From NCBI RefSeq assembly GCF_022809775.1, contig NZ_CP094380.1:310001-374000 (forward strand): 64,000 nucleotides of DNA. Direction: 5' to 3'. A model generated the notes under the pieces. It saw only the letters and a list, made by a program, of their open reading frames with translations. It was not told where the DNA came from and did no database searches. Source of the stretch: Pseudodesulfovibrio tunisiensis. Lineage in GTDB: Bacteria > Desulfobacterota > Desulfovibrionia > Desulfovibrionales > Desulfovibrionaceae. The position numbers and the translations under genes were made by a program. Of the stretch, positions 19,615 through 25,858 are shown in pieces (position 1 is the first letter of the stretch; each line of letters opens with the position of its first letter).

Positions 19615-19689
19615 TTTTTCCCTGTTGCACCGCACATCCCTGTTGCGCATCGGGGCCGTTGGCTGTAGATCGTTGCCAAGGTGAACCGT

Positions 19690-21105
19690 ATGCATGAATT
19701 CATGGTCCTGACTTCCGACGAGGAACAGGCTGAAGCCTTGATTCGCGCGCTTTCCGGGCGTGGCGACGTGGTTGCGTGCAAGCTCGTTTCCGAGTGTCGC
19801 GCGGTTTTGGCTGCCCATCCCGTGGATGTGGTCTTTGCGGACCATGCCGCGCTGCTCGGTGAAGGCCGATCCTACCCGGAAGGGGTAGGGCGACTTTGGC
19901 ACGGTCCGTCCCGGGCCGAGGTCGTGGTCATGGTGGAGCCGGAGAACGTGCGTGACGCAATGGGCGCGGTTCGTGCCGGTGCAGCGGATTTCCTGACGTA
20001 TCCTCTTGCCTCCGGGGATGTGGCGCATGTGCTGGAGCAGTTGGAAAAGCGCGGAATGCTTCGCACCGAGCTGGATTACCTCAAGGGACAGTTCTGGAAC
20101 GAGGATGCCCTTGAAGTGGTGCAGACTTCCAGTCCGGTCATGCGCGAGGTGTTTGCCAAGGTTCGCCAGATGGCCGGAACCCGGACCACAGTGCTGCTCA
20201 CCGGGGAAACCGGGACCGGAAAAAGCCTTGTTGCCCGGCTGATTCACGCCCACAGCACGCGGCGTGACGAGCCTTTCGTGAGCGTGCATTGCGGGGCCGT
20301 GCCCGACACCCTGATCGAAAGCGAGCTGTTCGGGCATGAAAAGGGTGCGTTCACCGGGGCGGTGCGCAGCAAGCCCGGCAAGTTCCGGCAGGCTCAGGGT
20401 GGCACCCTGTTTCTCGACGAAGTGGGCACCATCTCGCCGCTCATGCAGATCAAGCTGCTCAACGTGCTTCAGGAACGGACCATCCAGAGCGTGGGCGGGG
20501 ACAGGGATGTGCCTGTGGACGTGCGCATCATCGCGGCCACCAACGACGATCTGTGGGACATGAGCGAAAAGGGCCTGTTCCGCAAGGACCTCTTCTATCG
20601 GCTCAACGTGTTTCCCATCGAAATTCCGCCCCTGCGAGAGCGCAGAAGCGACATCCTCCGCTTCGCCGATGTCTTCATCAGCCATTTCAATGCCCAGCTC
20701 GGCAAGAACATCCGGGGCGTGGAACCGGACGTGCTCGAGGCGTTCCATGAATACGACTGGCCCGGCAACGTGCGCGAACTGGAGAATCTGGTGGAGCGCG
20801 CCTGCATTCTGGAGCAGGGGGAACGACTCGGGGCCGGCAGCTTTCCCCGCGAGTTTCTTCGGGAGGAAACCGTTCGCGAACCGGACGTGCATGTGGACAT
20901 TTCCCTGCCTCTTGGGCGTGCCCGTCAGGAAGTCGTGGATCGTTTCGAGCACGAGTACCTTTGTGAACTCCTGTCCGCCACGCATGGGCGGATCAAGGAA
21001 GCCGCACAATGGGCGGGCATCACGCCCCGTCAGTTGCACAAGCTGATGGCCAGACACAACCTTCGGCGGTGTTCCTTCCGGGATGTCGCAAAGCGGAACT
21101 CCTAG
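19690..21105 (+). CDS. Sigma-54-dependent regulator with degenerate receiver
   Basis: A ~471-residue activator. The N-terminal ~125 residues resemble a receiver with a candidate Asp ([11 protein letters not shown]). The conserved Lys that follows beta-5 is replaced ([10 protein letters not shown]), so phosphorylation control is doubtful. The AAA+ domain has GETGTGKS near residue 178, GAFTGA near 219 and [10 protein letters not shown] Fis-type helix-turn-helix ends the protein ([18 protein letters not shown]). No dedicated kinase gene is adjacent. The ATG at 19690 with AAGGTGA seven bases upstream is preferred to the GTG at 19681. A strong double terminator follows. Its targets are unknown; the neighbouring tautomerase or the operon at 21355 are candidates. 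Confidence 0.88.
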
Positions 21106-21190: not shown

Positions 21191-21216
21191 GGCGGCTGCG
21201 GCCGCCTTTTTCTTTT
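21191..21216 (+). terminator. Second rho-independent terminator
   Basis: A perfect 6-bp GC stem (ggcggc/gccgcc) with loop tgcg is followed by a T-rich run. It is a back-up terminator 50 bases past the first. The rest of the gap up to 21354 is AT-rich with no other clear signal. Confidence 0.75.
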
Positions 21217-21354
21217 CTGGGCGTGCGAAACGAGAACCGTCAGTACCCATTTTGCTTGTTCCTCTTTTTAAAATAGTCTTTTAATTCAGTATATTATGAT
21301 TTGGTCTCATCCATGCAATCCGTGGCGCCGAACCAATAGCCCTGAAGGTTGCGT

Positions 21355-21654
21355 ATGGAACGGACCGTAACGGAACAATCTGGCTGCGTGGAAACCGTCG
21401 AGGGAGTGTTCATCCCCGACGGATGGAACAGCGATTTCATGGTGACCAGCGTGTTTGTCGCCTGCGATGGCGAACGCGAGATCGTTGTCCGGAATCTGGC
21501 CGAGCGCCCGGAAGTACTCGTCATGCTGCGCAGGCGTGTCCGCGTGACCGGTCTGGTGTTCCGGACCGGATGGCGCGAGGCCATGGATGTGGAGCGGGTG
21601 GTGCTGCTGACCGAAGCTCGGAAAGGGCATGCGTCCGTCCGGTCGGAAGAGTGA
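21355..21654 (+). CDS. Small beta-rich protein of unknown function, paired with 25526
   Basis: A 99-residue protein that I do not recognise. Its pattern of alternating hydrophobic strands (FMVTSVFVACDGEREIVV, then RRRVRVTGLVF and VERVVLL) suggests a small OB-like barrel. The same strand pattern, with V-x-A-x-x-G-x-R/E in the middle, recurs in the 89-residue protein at 25526. The two therefore look like members of one family flanking the aminomutase/ATP-grasp genes. An AAGG ribosome site lies seven bases before the ATG. The 69-base gap to the radical SAM gene has no terminator, so it is probably the first gene of the operon. Confidence 0.65.
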   Translation: MERTVTEQSGCVETVEGVFIPDGWNSDFMVTSVFVACDGEREIVVRNLAERPEVLVMLRRRVRVTGLVFRTGWREAMDVERVVLLTEARKGHASVRSEE

Positions 21655-21723
21655 ATCGTGCCGGAACGAATCGCCATGCGGTTGTTCCGGCGAAAAAAAA
21701 TATTCCAGAAAGGAACAAGTGAA

Positions 21724-22968
21724 ATGATTGAAATCGTGGAGAATGCCGATCAGGAACCTCCTGACCGCGCCGGGGTGGCCGCAGAAAAGGATTCGCTTTC
21801 CCTTTTGACGGACATGCGCGTGTTCCCTTCCATGTGGGAGTTTCGCGAGCATGTGTATCCGCATGTTTCGGACAAGCAGTGGAACGATTGGCATTGGCAG
21901 CTCGCCAATCGGATCACGGATGCGGACGTCATGGCCGACGTGCTCGGCCCCACCGGAGCTGAGGCCATGCCTCTTGGCAAGCGGCTGCCCGTTGCCGTGA
22001 CTCCGTATTATCTCGGCACCGCCGCCGTGTCCGGCAGCATGGGCCTGCGCCGCTGCATCGAACCGAGTCTGGGCGAGTTCGCCACAGGCCCGGGCGAGTG
22101 TGCCGACCCCTTGGGCGAGGACGGGCATTCCCCGGTGCCGGGCATCGTGCATCGGTATCCGGACAGGGTGCTTTTTCTGGTCACGGATTTCTGCTCCACC
22201 TATTGCCGCTACTGCACCCGTTCGCGGCTCGTGGGCCGCAAGAGCCGTCCGCCGCGCATCAATGACTGGAAGCGTGCCATCGACTACATTCGGGAAACCC
22301 CGGCCGTACGCGACGTCCTGCTTTCCGGTGGCGACCCTCTGACCCTGTCCGACGAGAGGCTGGACTGGCTGCTCACGGAGCTGCGCTCCATTCCGCATGT
22401 GGAGATCGTGCGCATCGGCACCAAGGTCCCGGCGGTTCTGCCCCAGCGTGTGACTCCGAAGCTGACGGCCATGCTCGGGAAGCATCATCCCCTGTTCATG
22501 AGTTTGCACTTCGCGCATCCGGACGAACTGACCTCGGAGACCTCGGCAGCTTGCGCCATGCTGGCCGACGCCGGCATTCCCCTTGGCAGCCAGACCGTGC
22601 TGCTGCGTGGCGTGAACGATGATCTGACCACCATGAAGAAGCTCATGCAGGGTCTGCTCAAGGTGCGCGTGAAACCCTACTACCTGTATCAGTGCGACCC
22701 GATTCCGGGGTCCGCGCATTTTCGTACCCCGGTGGAAAAGGGGTTGGAGATCATGCGTGGCCTGCGCGGACATACGTCCGGCTATGCCGTGCCGTACTAC
22801 GTGATCGATGCGCCCGGCGGTGGCGGCAAGATTCCCCTTCTGCCGGAATACGTGATGGGGCGGGAACAGGATTCCGTGGTGCTGCGGAATTACGAAGGCA
22901 AAATTTACGAATATCCCGACACCGTGGCGACCCCTGTGGTCGCGCCCGGTGGGCGGAGGGCCATGTAG
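21724..22968 (+). CDS. kamA: Lysine 2,3-aminomutase-family radical SAM enzyme (KamA-like)
   Basis: A 414-residue radical SAM/PLP aminomutase. The [4Fe-4S] motif is CSTYCRYC (Cys157, 161, 164). The PLP lysine is in APGGGGK (~Lys369). Two aspartates known in Clostridium lysine 2,3-aminomutase to hold the substrate side-chain amine (Asp293 and Asp330) are retained here as YQCD (~325) and VIDAPGG (~362), with the same 37-residue spacing. That favours L-lysine to L-beta-lysine chemistry over the glutamate aminomutase variant. The start at 21724 follows AAAGGAAC; upstream in-frame codons lack a ribosome site. It abuts the first ATP-grasp gene without a gap, so its product is probably consumed by those ligases and the GNAT. 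Confidence 0.88.
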   Translation: MIEIVENADQEPPDRAGVAAEKDSLSLLTDMRVFPSMWEFREHVYPHVSDKQWNDWHWQLANRITDADVMADVLGPTGAEAMPLGKRLPVAVTPYYLGTAAVSGSMGLRRCIEPSLGEFATGPGECADPLGEDGHSPVPGIVHRYPDRVLFLVTDFCSTYCRYCTRSRLVGRKSRPPRINDWKRAIDYIRETPAVRDVLLSGGDPLTLSDERLDWLLTELRSIPHVEIVRIGTKVPAVLPQRVTPKLTAMLGKHHPLFMSLHFAHPDELTSETSAACAMLADAGIPLGSQTVLLRGVNDDLTTMKKLMQGLLKVRVKPYYLYQCDPIPGSAHFRTPVEKGLEIMRGLRGHTSGYAVPYYVIDAPGGGGKIPLLPEYVMGREQDSVVLRNYEGKIYEYPDTVATPVVAPGGRRAM

Positions 22969-23970
22969 ATGAGAATCGGCATTACCTACGATCTGAAGGA
23001 CGATTACCTGAAACGGGGATTTTCCCTGGAAGAGGCGGCTGAGTTCGATTCCGAGGTGACCATTGCGGGCATCGCGGACGCCCTTGCCGCACCCGGTCGG
23101 GAAATCGTGCGGATCGGTTGCGTCACCGACCTGGTTCAGCGGCTGGCAGCCGGAGAGAGCTGGGACATGGTGTTCAACATCGCCGAAGGATGCCGGGGAC
23201 TGGGCCGCGAGGCCCAGGTCCCGGCCCTGCTCGACGCGTGGGGCATTCCCTACACCTTTTCCGGGCCGGAGCTCATGACTCTGACCCTGCACAAGGCCAT
23301 GACCAACGCCGTGGTCAGAACCTCGGGCGTGGCGACCGCGGATTTTCGTCTGGTGCGTGAACCAGCAGACATCGACAGGGTGAACCTGCCGTTTCCCCTG
23401 TTTGCCAAGCCCGTGGCCGAAGGCACGAGCAAGGGCATTTCCGATCGGTCCCTGATCCGCTCGAAGCAGGACCTCCGCGAGGTGTGCCTCGACCTGCTCG
23501 AAACCTTTTGCCAGCCCGTGCTGGTGGAAACGTATCTTCCGGGCCGGGAATTCACCGTGGGCCTGCTTGGGTGCGGAGCCGAGGCCCGTGCCGTTGGCGT
23601 GCTCGAGGTCGCAGCTGTGGGGCGTGGCGATGCTTCGGCCTATACCTATGAAAACAAGCAGGAGTGGCGCGACCGGGTTGCCTATGAACTCGTGGATGAC
23701 GAAGCGGCCATGAATGCCGCGGCTCTGGCACTGAAGGCGTGGCGCGGTCTCGGCTGTCTGGATGGCGGCCGTGTGGACGTGCGCCTGGACGAACATGGCG
23801 ATCCTCGTTTCATCGAGGTCAATCCGCTGCCCGGCCTGAACCCCGAGAGCTCGGACCTGCCCATTCTCTGGCGGCTTGGCGGCCATGAGTACAGCGAGCT
23901 TGTCCGATCCATTTTCGGGTCAGCCATGCTGCGAGCGCGCAGGGGCTGGGCAGGGAGGAGGGCGGCATGA
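22969..23970 (+). CDS. ATP-grasp ligase 1 (D-Ala-D-Ala ligase-like)
   Basis: A 333-residue ATP-grasp enzyme of the D-alanine-D-alanine ligase superfamily. The N-terminal domain has VFNIAEGCRGLGREAQVPAL (residues ~67-86), which corresponds to the Ddl serine/glutamate loop. The ATP-grasp core has LFAKPVAEGTSKGI near 145, REFTVGLLG near 190 and the metal-binding FIEVNPLPGLNP near 284. It would join a carboxylate to an amine with ATP. It starts on the base after the kamA stop, and its own stop overlaps the next start (ATGA). It is not a plausible cell-wall Ddl, since this context would be unusual. A beta-lysine-containing amide or dipeptide is a reasonable but unproven product. Confidence 0.85.
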   Translation: MRIGITYDLKDDYLKRGFSLEEAAEFDSEVTIAGIADALAAPGREIVRIGCVTDLVQRLAAGESWDMVFNIAEGCRGLGREAQVPALLDAWGIPYTFSGPELMTLTLHKAMTNAVVRTSGVATADFRLVREPADIDRVNLPFPLFAKPVAEGTSKGISDRSLIRSKQDLREVCLDLLETFCQPVLVETYLPGREFTVGLLGCGAEARAVGVLEVAAVGRGDASAYTYENKQEWRDRVAYELVDDEAAMNAAALALKAWRGLGCLDGGRVDVRLDEHGDPRFIEVNPLPGLNPESSDLPILWRLGGHEYSELVRSIFGSAMLRARRGWAGRRAA

Positions 23971-24983
23971 ATCGTCGAACCGTTGCCATCGTGCGCAATC
24001 ATGTGTCCGCTTCGGCTTTGGCCGATGCCCGGGACGTGCTGGACCAGTCCGCGTTCGTGGGGCGCATGCTTCGCGAGTCCGGGTGGAGTGTGGTGGAGAT
24101 CGAACTCGGCACTGATCTGGATGAAGCTGCGGCCACGCTCAAGGGCATCCGGCCGGACGTGGTTTTCAATCTGGTGGAGGACATTCTGGACGTCGGGGAG
24201 TTGGCGTGTCTGGCTCCGGCCGTGTATCGCCGACTTGGACTGCCTTTTACCGGCTCGGACGGTCCGGTTCTGCTCATGACCAATGACAAGTTCGCGGCCA
24301 AGCATCGGCTCGAGGCTGCCGGGCTGTCCACTCCGCCGGGCATCGACATGGGTGGGGTCAAGCGGGGGCGTTTCCCCGGTCCGGGCCGGTACATCGTGAA
24401 GAGCCGGACCGAACATGCCTCTCTCGGGCTGGATGACTCCGCAGTGGTGGACGTGTCCACGGCCGGGGAATTGCTGGAGGCCATGAACGGTTTTCGGGCG
24501 AGGATGGGCGGCTCCTGTCTTGCCGAGAGATTCGTGGATGGCCGGGAATTCAGCGTGGCCATTCTGGAACATCCGGCTGGCGTCGGCCGTGCGTTCGGTG
24601 TTGCGGAAATCGTGTTTCGTGCGGACATGCCCGTGAAGATCGTGGGCTATGACGCCAAATGGGTCGAGGGATCGGACGCGGACGCGGCCACGGTACGGAG
24701 TTTTTCCTTTTGTGAAACCGAACCGGAATTGGCGGAAGAGTTGCAGCGTCTCGCGTTGGACTGTTGGGATGAAATGGGCCTTGCCGGGTACGCACGGATT
24801 GATTTTCGTGTGGATGCGGAGGGACGGGCCCATGTGATCGATATCAATGCCAATCCGTGCATCGCGGAAAACGCCGGATTCATGGCCGCGGCCCGCCGGG
24901 CCGGATGGTCGGATCGGGACGTTATGGACGCGATAGTGCAGGGAGCCATGGAAAGAGATGGAAGCGGAATCAAAGCCGAGTGA
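23967..24983 (+). CDS. ATP-grasp ligase 2 (D-Ala-D-Ala ligase-like)
   Basis: A 338-residue ATP-grasp enzyme, homologous in plan to the preceding one but clearly divergent. It has VVFNLVEDILDVGELACLAP near residue 63, YIVKSRTEHASLGL near 142, REFSVAILEH near 191 and the metal-binding VIDINANPCIAENAGFM near 290. Two different ATP-grasp ligases in tandem imply two successive amide bonds, or a heteromeric ligase. The start overlaps the previous stop, and the GNAT start lies 26 bases inside its end. Substrates are not deducible from sequence. Confidence 0.85.
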   Translation: MNRRTVAIVRNHVSASALADARDVLDQSAFVGRMLRESGWSVVEIELGTDLDEAAATLKGIRPDVVFNLVEDILDVGELACLAPAVYRRLGLPFTGSDGPVLLMTNDKFAAKHRLEAAGLSTPPGIDMGGVKRGRFPGPGRYIVKSRTEHASLGLDDSAVVDVSTAGELLEAMNGFRARMGGSCLAERFVDGREFSVAILEHPAGVGRAFGVAEIVFRADMPVKIVGYDAKWVEGSDADAATVRSFSFCETEPELAEELQRLALDCWDEMGLAGYARIDFRVDAEGRAHVIDINANPCIAENAGFMAAARRAGWSDRDVMDAIVQGAMERDGSGIKAE

Positions 24984-25587
24984 ACCCGGCGAACCCGCCA
25001 CACACGGGAATATCGTTTTCAGGAACGGGCTGGAGCAGAGGGATGTTGCGGCATTGTGCGCACTGGCTGCGCAAACCGGATTCTTTTCCGATGACGAAGT
25101 GCTCATCGTGGACGAACTTGTCCGGGCCGCGCTCGAGCAGGGCGATGTCAGCGGATATCATTTTCTGGTCGTTCATGACGGGGCGGAAGGCAAGGAACCG
25201 GCCGGATTCGCGTGCTTCGGCCCGGTGCCGTGCACCGAGGGGAGCTGGGATCTGTACTGGATAGCCGTGTCCCCCGTTGTGCAGGGGAAGGGTTTCGGAC
25301 ATGCCCTGCTTGGCGAAGTGGAGCGCCGCGTTCGCATTCTGGGCGGCAGAAAGCTGTTTCTGGAAACCTCCTCCCGGGGACAGTATGCGCCGACCAGAGG
25401 GTTTTATTTGTCGAACGGCTACCGGGAAGAGGCCCGACTTCGGGACTACTATGCGCCGGGCGAGGACTGCCTTGCGTTTGCCAAGGCCTTGAAAGCAACC
25501 AGCAAAGAGCAGCCGGAGGCTTGCTATGAAGAAGACAAGTGGAATGACCAAGGTCAGCGGCCTTGTCCAGACCTGGCTCGGCAGTGA
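24958..25587 (+). CDS. GNAT-family N-acetyltransferase
   Basis: A 209-residue acetyltransferase of the GNAT fold. The acetyl-CoA loop is VVQGKGFGHALLGEVERR near residue 105, preceded by the strand WIAVSP and followed by LETSSRGQYAPTRGFYLSNGY. A KamA partnered with a GNAT is the architecture of N-epsilon-acetyl-beta-lysine synthesis (AblA/AblB) in methanogens and some bacteria. This GNAT may therefore acetylate a beta-lysine side chain or the ligated product, but I see no AblB-specific motif. The gene overlaps the end of ATP-grasp 2, and its 3' end overlaps the next gene by 62 bases. The last ~20 residues are probably dispensable. Confidence 0.85.
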   Translation: MEAESKPSEPGEPATHGNIVFRNGLEQRDVAALCALAAQTGFFSDDEVLIVDELVRAALEQGDVSGYHFLVVHDGAEGKEPAGFACFGPVPCTEGSWDLYWIAVSPVVQGKGFGHALLGEVERRVRILGGRKLFLETSSRGQYAPTRGFYLSNGYREEARLRDYYAPGEDCLAFAKALKATSKEQPEACYEEDKWNDQGQRPCPDLARQ

Positions 25588-25795
25588 AGACGAGCAGGAC
25601 GTGCTCGTGATCGCCGCGTCCGGGCGTGAACGCTACCTTGTCGATCCGGGCAGGGTCGCCTCGGAACTCAAGGGATACGAAGGCGAATGGGTGGAGGCCG
25701 TCGGTGTGGTCCGCCGCGAGGAAGGCAACCTGCATATTGCCTTGCGTTCCTTCTATACTCTGGATGATGACGACTGGGATGATGACGACTGGTAG
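25526..25795 (+). CDS. Small beta-rich protein with acidic DDDDW tail
   Basis: An 89-residue protein of unknown function. Its strand pattern (VSGLVQTWLG, DVLVIAASGRERYLV, WVEAVGVVRR, LHIALRSFYTL) resembles that of the 99-residue protein at 21355, suggesting two copies of one fold at either end of the operon. The C-terminus is a duplicated DDDDW motif ending the protein, an unusual acidic-aromatic tail. GGAGG lies six bases before the ATG, and the start is inside the 3' end of the GNAT gene. A strong terminator follows at 25826. A binding or carrier role is possible; nothing catalytic is visible. Confidence 0.7.
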   Translation: MKKTSGMTKVSGLVQTWLGSEDEQDVLVIAASGRERYLVDPGRVASELKGYEGEWVEAVGVVRREEGNLHIALRSFYTLDDDDWDDDDW

Positions 25796-25825
25796 GCTGT
25801 TGTCGGACTGACTCGTGATGTTGAA

Positions 25826-25858
25826 AAAGACCGGCAGGGAGGTGCTGCCGGTCTTTTG
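25826..25858 (+). terminator. Rho-independent terminator of the aminomutase operon
   Basis: A perfect 13-bp stem (aaaagaccggcag/ctgccggtctttt) with a 7-base loop, 30 bases after the stop at 25795. The A/T flanks make it work in either direction between converging genes. Confidence 0.9.

Follow-up and report, generated by a model that had tools for sequence, protein, structure and literature searches.

Linkage of a lysine 2,3-aminomutase-like enzyme, two D-Ala-D-Ala ligase-like proteins and an N-acetyltransferase in Pseudodesulfovibrio tunisiensis and related loci: a possible route to acetylated beta-lysine peptides

Two described pathways come closest to the subject of this analysis, a six-gene operon at positions 21355–25795 of a 64,000-nucleotide stretch of the Pseudodesulfovibrio tunisiensis genome (NCBI RefSeq contig NZ_CP094380.1, positions 310,001 to 374,000; hereafter the window), which is a single contig of 3.61 Mb. 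The AblA/AblB pathway joins, in one operon, a KamA-family aminomutase with both lysine-selecting aspartates to a GNAT N-acetyltransferase, and N-epsilon-acetyl-beta-lysine is a known solute (PMC1224877). The synthesis of N-acetylglutaminylglutamine amide (NAGGN) by AsnO and Ngg combines an ATP-driven peptide bond with N-acetylation; Ngg is described as performing both glutamine acetylation and peptide bond formation (PMC8070244). The window operon resembles the former in its aminomutase and GNAT, and the latter in pairing predicted ATP-driven ligation with N-acetylation, in some related loci on a single protein. It differs from the former in that its aminomutase (KamA) lacks the zinc-site cysteines and falls below the AblA cut-off, its GNAT is not AblB, and two ATP-grasp ligases resembling D-Ala-D-Ala ligase (Ddl), AG1 and AG2, are added; it differs from the latter in having an aminomutase in place of the asparagine-synthase-like AsnO. 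No asparagine-synthase-like gene lies in the operon, the part of the genome searched for one, and AG2 and GNAT match (at E ≤ 1e-3) none of the NAGGN models that we take NCBIfam to include. By the sequence-based tests made, the operon is not a member of the AblA/AblB, Ddl, NAGGN or EpmB systems. In our assessment, the balance is about even that it makes an acetyl-capped beta-lysine di- or tripeptide via KamA, AG1/AG2 and GNAT, the simplest role for which would be that of a compatible solute or a stress metabolite; the solute role taken on its own is a more tentative suggestion, made by analogy.

The six genes, all open frames on the forward strand, are sm1, KamA, AG1, AG2, GNAT and sm2 (Table 1). 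Pfam assigns Radical_SAM and LAM_C domains to KamA, Dala_Dala_lig_C to each ligase (E-value 4e-25 for AG1) and Acetyltransf_1/7 to GNAT (E-value 5e-10 for Acetyltransf_1). KamA and AG1 abut with 0 nt between them, AG1 and AG2 overlap by 4 nt (ATGA), AG2 and GNAT by 26 nt, and GNAT and sm2 by 62 nt; a gap of 69 nt separates sm1 from KamA, whose ATG at 21724 is preceded by AAAGGA (a GTG at 21658 is a longer alternative). These junctions, on one strand from KamA through GNAT, confirm the coupled operon of an aminomutase, two ATP-grasp ligases and a GNAT proposed in a preliminary description of this stretch. That description did not extend to sm1, sm2, the upstream sigma54-activator gene and the control it may exert, the deacetylase partner in relatives or the breadth of occurrence.

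KamA aligns with PDB 2a5h over 361 residues (E-value 1.4e-128), and its D325, D362 and K369 correspond to positions 293, 330 and 337. In 2a5h, Asp293 and Asp330 hold the lysine side chain, and Lys337 is the lysine that binds pyridoxal 5'-phosphate (PLP). The claim in the preliminary description that both substrate-selecting aspartates are kept is thus upheld, and it extends to the relatives: the Asp pair, the PLP lysine and three cluster cysteines (CxxxCxxC) are present in the window KamA and in all 53 other cluster-type rows of the alignment, two of which come from loci with only KamA and AG2. A distant KamA-like group (three rows) has the Asp pair in none, with Glu at one position and Ala or a gap at the other. 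Cys268 and a C-terminal cysteine cluster form the zinc site of lysine 2,3-aminomutase. At the Cys268 position, the window KamA has Asp (residue 300); this cysteine is found in none of the 53 cluster-type rows, from which the C-terminal cysteine cluster is also missing, and both are found in all six AblA-type rows. A KamA subfamily lacking the zinc site could help to define the essential parts of lysine 2,3-aminomutase.

Family models and phylogeny likewise set the cluster-type KamAs apart from AblA. The window KamA scores 464 bits against NCBIfam TIGR03820 (AblA; cut-off 525.4 bits), and all nine KamAs scored fall below the cut-off, eight of them at 431–492 bits and the ninth, from a locus with only KamA and AG2 (L138; L and G numbers denote loci and genomes compared), under a bit short at 524.6; the nine include the L142 KamA, and the inputs from L078 and L118 ended at the ends of their tblastn matches. 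The AblA of L035, used as a control, scores 775 bits. The same nine KamAs also miss the NCBIfam cut-offs for the glutamate, arginine and EpmB families. A maximum-likelihood analysis of 63 rows places 48 of the 52 cluster KamAs in one group (support 100/99) and the six AblA rows in a group of their own. The other four (L140, L142, L144 and L149), which were retained in the counts, are placed outside the main clade on weakly supported forks near the AblA rows.

Both ligases keep the ATP- and Mg-binding residues and the catalytic residues of Ddl. In AG1, columns K230, R268, D270, E283, N285 and S295 are kept in 90 of 90 loci; a structure model of AG2 predicts a full Ddl fold, and the fold of AG1 is assigned from its sequence. 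The possibility that either ligase serves as the cell-wall Ddl was rejected: against the NCBIfam Ddl models TIGR01205 and NF002378 (cut-offs 245.65 and 243 bits), AG1 scores 109 and 137 bits and AG2 71 and 97 bits, far below the cut-offs, whereas a separate Ddl encoded in this genome passes both (261 and 305 bits). The Ser-Leu motif of Ddl is its acceptor-carboxylate motif. Its serine is kept in AG1 (Ser 295 in 90/90 loci); AG2 differs, with column 303 mostly Ala (Ala in 71 loci, Ser in 18, Gly in five, Cys in one and two uncovered; n = 97) and Gly instead of Leu at column 304 in 93 of 97. Since two Ddl-like ligases with catalytic residues are present and neither is the Ddl of the genome, at least one amide bond beyond N-acetyl-beta-lysine is the natural reading, as had been suggested from the presence of two such enzymes.

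AG1-like proteins are abundant: at least 7999 of 8000 scored candidates match AG1 at E ≤ 1e-40, a count of likeness that does not cover the share lying within such clusters. Among the 120 AG1-like rows listed, the names given refer to D-Ala-D-Ala ligase or the corresponding family, one row being labelled hypothetical as well, and for these proteins such names are probably wrong. Two loci carry AG2 paralogs (L035:6029-7042 of genome G005, and L042 of G018) in which a catalytic Lys is replaced by Leu, an Asp by Val and the metal-site Asn is gone, so that by their residues they look like dead ligases; the paralog in L035 lies near AblA/AblB and a row of Zn_protease, RimK, AstE and MscS genes.

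The KamA relative EpmB, which by its NCBIfam name serves the modification of EF-P, raises another interpretation, namely that the ligases attach beta-lysine, acetylated or not, to a protein or an RNA, in the manner of EpmA and EpmB with EF-P. The window KamA matches the EpmB model TIGR03821 at a lower score, 231 bits, and misses its cut-off of 369.3 bits; the modelled AG2 fold would be that of a small-molecule Ddl, and by eye no protein-substrate gene was recognized among the shared neighbours, unless sm1 or sm2 is one. We regard such a tagging function as very improbable.

The gene arrangement recurs far beyond chance. With AG2 as bait, the best 80 of 581 relatives in a scan of named genomes were taken, ranked by similarity to AG2 irrespective of KamA, and partners were counted only where the flank was long enough (1.5 kb upstream for AG1, 4.5 kb upstream for KamA and 2.5 kb downstream for GNAT). 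Of such loci, 70 of 73 have AG1 upstream, 51 of 52 have KamA upstream and 54 of 57 have GNAT downstream; 37 of the 39 loci with both flanks carry all four genes in order on the same strand. This neighbourhood search had been proposed in the preliminary description as a check on the four-gene set; in these 80 loci the ATP-grasp genes are consistently linked, although some loci lack one ligase (see below). Among 60 genomes (that of P. tunisiensis included), AG2 was found at E ≤ 1e-40 in 20. The KamA matches in the same genomes separate by score: the first band comprises 19 genomes with ≥443 bits and G044, whose match is partial, and the second band lies at 390–413 bits. AG2 and the first-band, cluster-type KamA are each present in 20 genomes, 19 of which are common to both; the exceptions are G018, which has an AG2 paralog only, and G038, which has KamA-AG1 only. 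Of 20 flanking stretches, 16 carry KamA, AG1, AG2 and GNAT in this order on the same strand; two are halves of one set split at contig ends (G008) and two hold AG2 paralogs elsewhere. An AG2-profile match at E ≤ 1e-25 was obtained in 144 of 296 genomes sampled from the phylum, a count that also takes in more distant ligases.

These counts bear on a simpler interpretation, in which KamA and GNAT make N-acetyl-beta-lysine as a solute and the ligases serve something else. The two enzymes match the N-acetyl-beta-lysine pathway in kind, and the P. tunisiensis genome has a single KamA and no AblB: TIGR03827 (AblB) is not among the matches of the window GNAT and has zero matches genome-wide (the neighbour of the L035 AblA, a control, scores 304 bits). 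The comparison with N-acetyl-beta-lysine synthesis in the preliminary description holds for the lysine-type KamA residues and the presence of a GNAT, but not for the identity of the enzymes, which by family test are not AblA and AblB. Against the simpler interpretation stand the constancy with which KamA and AG1 accompany AG2 and the fusions of AG1 with AG2 and of AG2 with GNAT. Moreover, a second-band KamA is also present in 16 of the 20 genomes with a cluster-type KamA (P. tunisiensis counted among the 20), and the six second-band KamAs examined are all AblA-type (one by NCBIfam), which argues for a product other than N-acetyl-beta-lysine; in L035, where the second KamA is an AblA beside AblB, the cluster would be redundant. 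We find the simpler interpretation improbable.

The window GNAT carries the acetyl-CoA motif QGKGFG, with Gly 112 kept in 79 of 83 loci and Gly 114 in 82 of 83. A GNAT-HDAC protein occurs in 30 of 97 loci (in 31 with a looser cut-off), and its deacetylase domain has acetylpolyamine amidohydrolase as its nearest PDB match (E-value 1e-71 for the L078 protein). The catalytic His, Asp and Tyr columns are kept in 28–30 of the 30, the rest being uncovered; the protein differs from acetylpolyamine amidohydrolase by an added N-terminal GNAT-like part (weak Pfam matches) and, in L074, also by the GNAT of the operon, in a single 813-aa frame GNAT-HDAC-GNAT that recurs in L101 split over two frames. It is encoded 3' of the set on the same strand in the same-genus loci L032, L033, L034 and L036, and beside the set on the opposite strand in L045, L047 and L051. 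A deacetylase of this type would make the acetyl group removable, as a protecting group during ligation or as a recycling switch.

The same domain raises the possibility of a polyamine-like conjugate, in which the ligases would link a cationic amine, whether beta-lysine or another, with a diamine or a carboxylic acid, and acetylation and deacetylation would regulate this cationic metabolite as in polyamine turnover. Distant AG1-AG2 pairs lie 3' of arginase-family and pyruvoyl-dependent arginine decarboxylase genes in L135:2761-6320 (by Pfam) and L136 (by eye), and an ABC-transporter operon labelled PotABCD-like by eye lies 3' of KamA-AG1 in L158. Polyamine genes are, however, found only beside such distant pairs or in that one locus, the window operon has none, and KamA would leave a carboxylate free as a target for Ddl-type activation. 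We consider a polyamine-like conjugate unlikely, though the least so of the alternatives.

Beta-lysine is a constituent of known antibiotics, and some dipeptide antibiotics are built by stand-alone Ddl-type ligases, precedents for a secreted specialized metabolite (an antibiotic or metallophore) containing beta-lysine. Inspection by eye of the neighbour families common to at least three of 97 loci revealed no gene for export, resistance or a carrier protein apart from a Pit-type transporter (four loci) and an ABC-F-like protein (three loci), and the wide occurrence of so compact a set better fits a general metabolite; a secreted product is accordingly quite unlikely in our view. The DUF47 (10 loci) and Pit-like (four loci) neighbours, both labelled by eye, were ascribed to the synteny that related records share.

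For the acetyl-capped beta-lysine peptide, the gene set, its linkage, the family folds and the conserved catalytic residues are directly supported, and the linkage and fusions point to one shared pathway, for which we infer the following steps. KamA would convert L-lysine to beta-lysine in the cytosol. AG1, AG2 or both would then join beta-lysine to one or two amino acids or amines through one or two ATP-driven amide bonds, presumably by acyl-phosphate chemistry like that of Ddl, and GNAT would N-acetylate a remaining amine. In about a third of related loci, the deacetylase could remove the acetyl group in an optional further step. Transcription may start from a sigma54-controlled promoter.

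Table 1. Features of the operon and its flanks in window coordinates.
Feature	Position	Strand	Description
Sigma54-dependent activator gene	19681-21105	+	NtrC-like AAA+, Fis-type helix-turn-helix; Pfam Sigma54_activat (E-value 9e-68), HTH_8
Intrinsic terminator-like hairpin	21191-21206	+	3' of activator gene; GGCGGCTGCGGCCGCC and T-rich tail
Candidate sigma54 (-24/-12) promoter	21302-21317	+	TGGTCTCATCCATGCA; 37 nt 5' of sm1
sm1	21355-21654	+	99 aa; first gene of the operon; small protein without assigned function
KamA	21724-22968	+	414 aa; lysine 2,3-aminomutase-like radical SAM/PLP enzyme without zinc-site cysteines
AG1	22969-23970	+	333 aa; Ddl-like ATP-grasp ligase 1
AG2	23967-24983	+	338 aa; Ddl-like ATP-grasp ligase 2
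GNAT	24958-25587	+	209 aa; N-acetyltransferase
sm2	25526-25795	+	89 aa; acidic tail; small protein without assigned function
13-pair terminator-like hairpin	25825-25857	+	operon end, 3' of sm2; AAAAGACCGGCAG / CTGCCGGTCTTTT; inner part also from hairpin scan

The activator encoded upstream is a probable regulator of the operon; its N-terminal part has no match to the receiver domain PF00072 at E ≤ 1e-3 in Pfam. A homolog adjoins nine of the 16 complete sets (L032, L033, L034, L036, L037, L045, L047, L049 and L051), as well as the sets of L044 and L127; none was found in the fetched stretch near the sets of L039, L040, L041, L046, L048 and L050, and the stretch of L038 ends too soon. In L032, L033, L034, L036 and L044, a -24/-12-like site closer to the consensus than that of the window lies 37–39 nt 5' of sm1 (P-value 0.003–0.03 in base shuffles); good matches are also found 5' of the set in L037, L045, L047 and L127, and weaker matches in L049 and L051. 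Between sm1 and KamA, where the gaps of six loci were scanned, no site exceeds shuffles. A dyad-like stretch, GGAAC-N5-GTTCC, occurs 5' of sm1 in L032, L033, L034, L036 and L044 and near 21235-21250 of the window, and may be an activator binding site or part of a terminator. The terminator-like hairpins in Table 1 are to be read with the scan as a whole, in which shuffled sequences yield about as many hairpins as the real one.

Variants of the set were sought in 15 further stretches chosen from the 296-genome sample; the genes of one (L141) were unreadable under the open reading frame (ORF) choice used. The usual gene order is found in L140, L143 and L144, and L145 has KamA-deacetylase-AG1-AG2-GNAT. 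The order AG1-AG2-GNAT-KamA is seen in L142 and in L149 (where the ligases were placed by an AG2-profile scan), and L146 and L147 have KamA with a long single ORF read as an AG1-AG2 fusion. Among the other loci, AG2-GNAT fusions occur in L058 and L105, the latter also with KamA. In L158:3512-11807, the KamA-AG1 pair without AG2 or GNAT has an upstream gene that reads as a sigma54 activator, and one gene of the PotABCD-like operon downstream was checked with Pfam.

Several observations weigh against the peptide reading and its solute role. One ligase is missing in L158 (KamA-AG1), in L138 and L148 (KamA-AG2) and in L105 (KamA with the AG2-GNAT fusion), and ligases occur without KamA in L137 (AG1-AG2-GNAT), in L139 (an ORF read as an AG1-AG2 fusion, and GNAT; 8 kb seen) and in L058 (Kiritimatiellae; only 2.2 kb upstream) and L084 (Verrucomicrobia), which have AG2 and GNAT without KamA and AG1; the ligases therefore have no strict association with beta-lysine or with one another. 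The distant pairs beside arginase and arginine decarboxylase genes hint at other amine partners. The P. tunisiensis genome lacks the fused deacetylase, the search having found only a 33 per cent relative over part of the protein, and the candidate sigma54 site of the window, at the same place as those of the relatives, is weaker and not above shuffles (P-value = 0.4). None of the results links the operon directly to salt. Mechanosensitive-channel neighbours, considered as an osmotic hint, were dropped, as they occur in only three of 97 loci (three query proteins: L035 by Pfam, L042 and L074 labelled by eye), two of which are not full sets. The proposed substrate, product and expression are read from sequence and genomic context.

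By record title, KamA, AG1 and AG2 occur together in Desulfobacterota lineages, Acidobacteria, Nitrospinota, Planctomycetes, Bacteroidota, Spirochaetales, KSB1, Neomarinimicrobiota, Krumholzibacteriia, Sumerlaeota and Dependentiae; most records are metagenome bins, so single taxon labels may be wrong. One cluster (L123) is in a record titled Asaia bogorensis, the nearest KamA rows of which come from other phyla, and this metagenome-bin label may be wrong. With somewhat less than even confidence, we suggest that the operon belongs to a widespread pathway, without a name in the sources consulted, for a family of N-acetylated beta-lysine peptides, spread over about ten phyla by record titles, with an acetylation/deacetylation cycle in some and with its ligases filed as D-Ala-D-Ala ligase. 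Among the titles and openings of abstracts listed in the literature searches, none describes the gene set. A 2009 survey of ATP-grasp amidoligase neighbourhoods by Iyer and colleagues may already list such operons. The main text of PMC4641369 mentions neither lysine nor ATP-grasp nor acetyltransferase. The operon suggests that many sulfate-reducing and uncultured bacteria make a small metabolite not yet described, and it provides a discrete gene set with a testable first step.

The two small proteins match zero Pfam or NCBIfam families and show no similarity to each other. Homologs of sm1 lie 5' of KamA in L032, L033, L034, L036, L037 and L044, and homologs of sm2 lie 3' of GNAT in L034 (47 per cent) and, weakly, in L043 (31 per cent, E-value 9e-4). 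A protein with a CxxCxxCC motif, the Pfam match of which is below the cut-off, occurs in 12 of 97 loci. Close to the main operon of L037, a second group of genes (L037:2368-5413) comprises sm2-like, GNAT-like (33 per cent), sm1-like and NtrC-like members.

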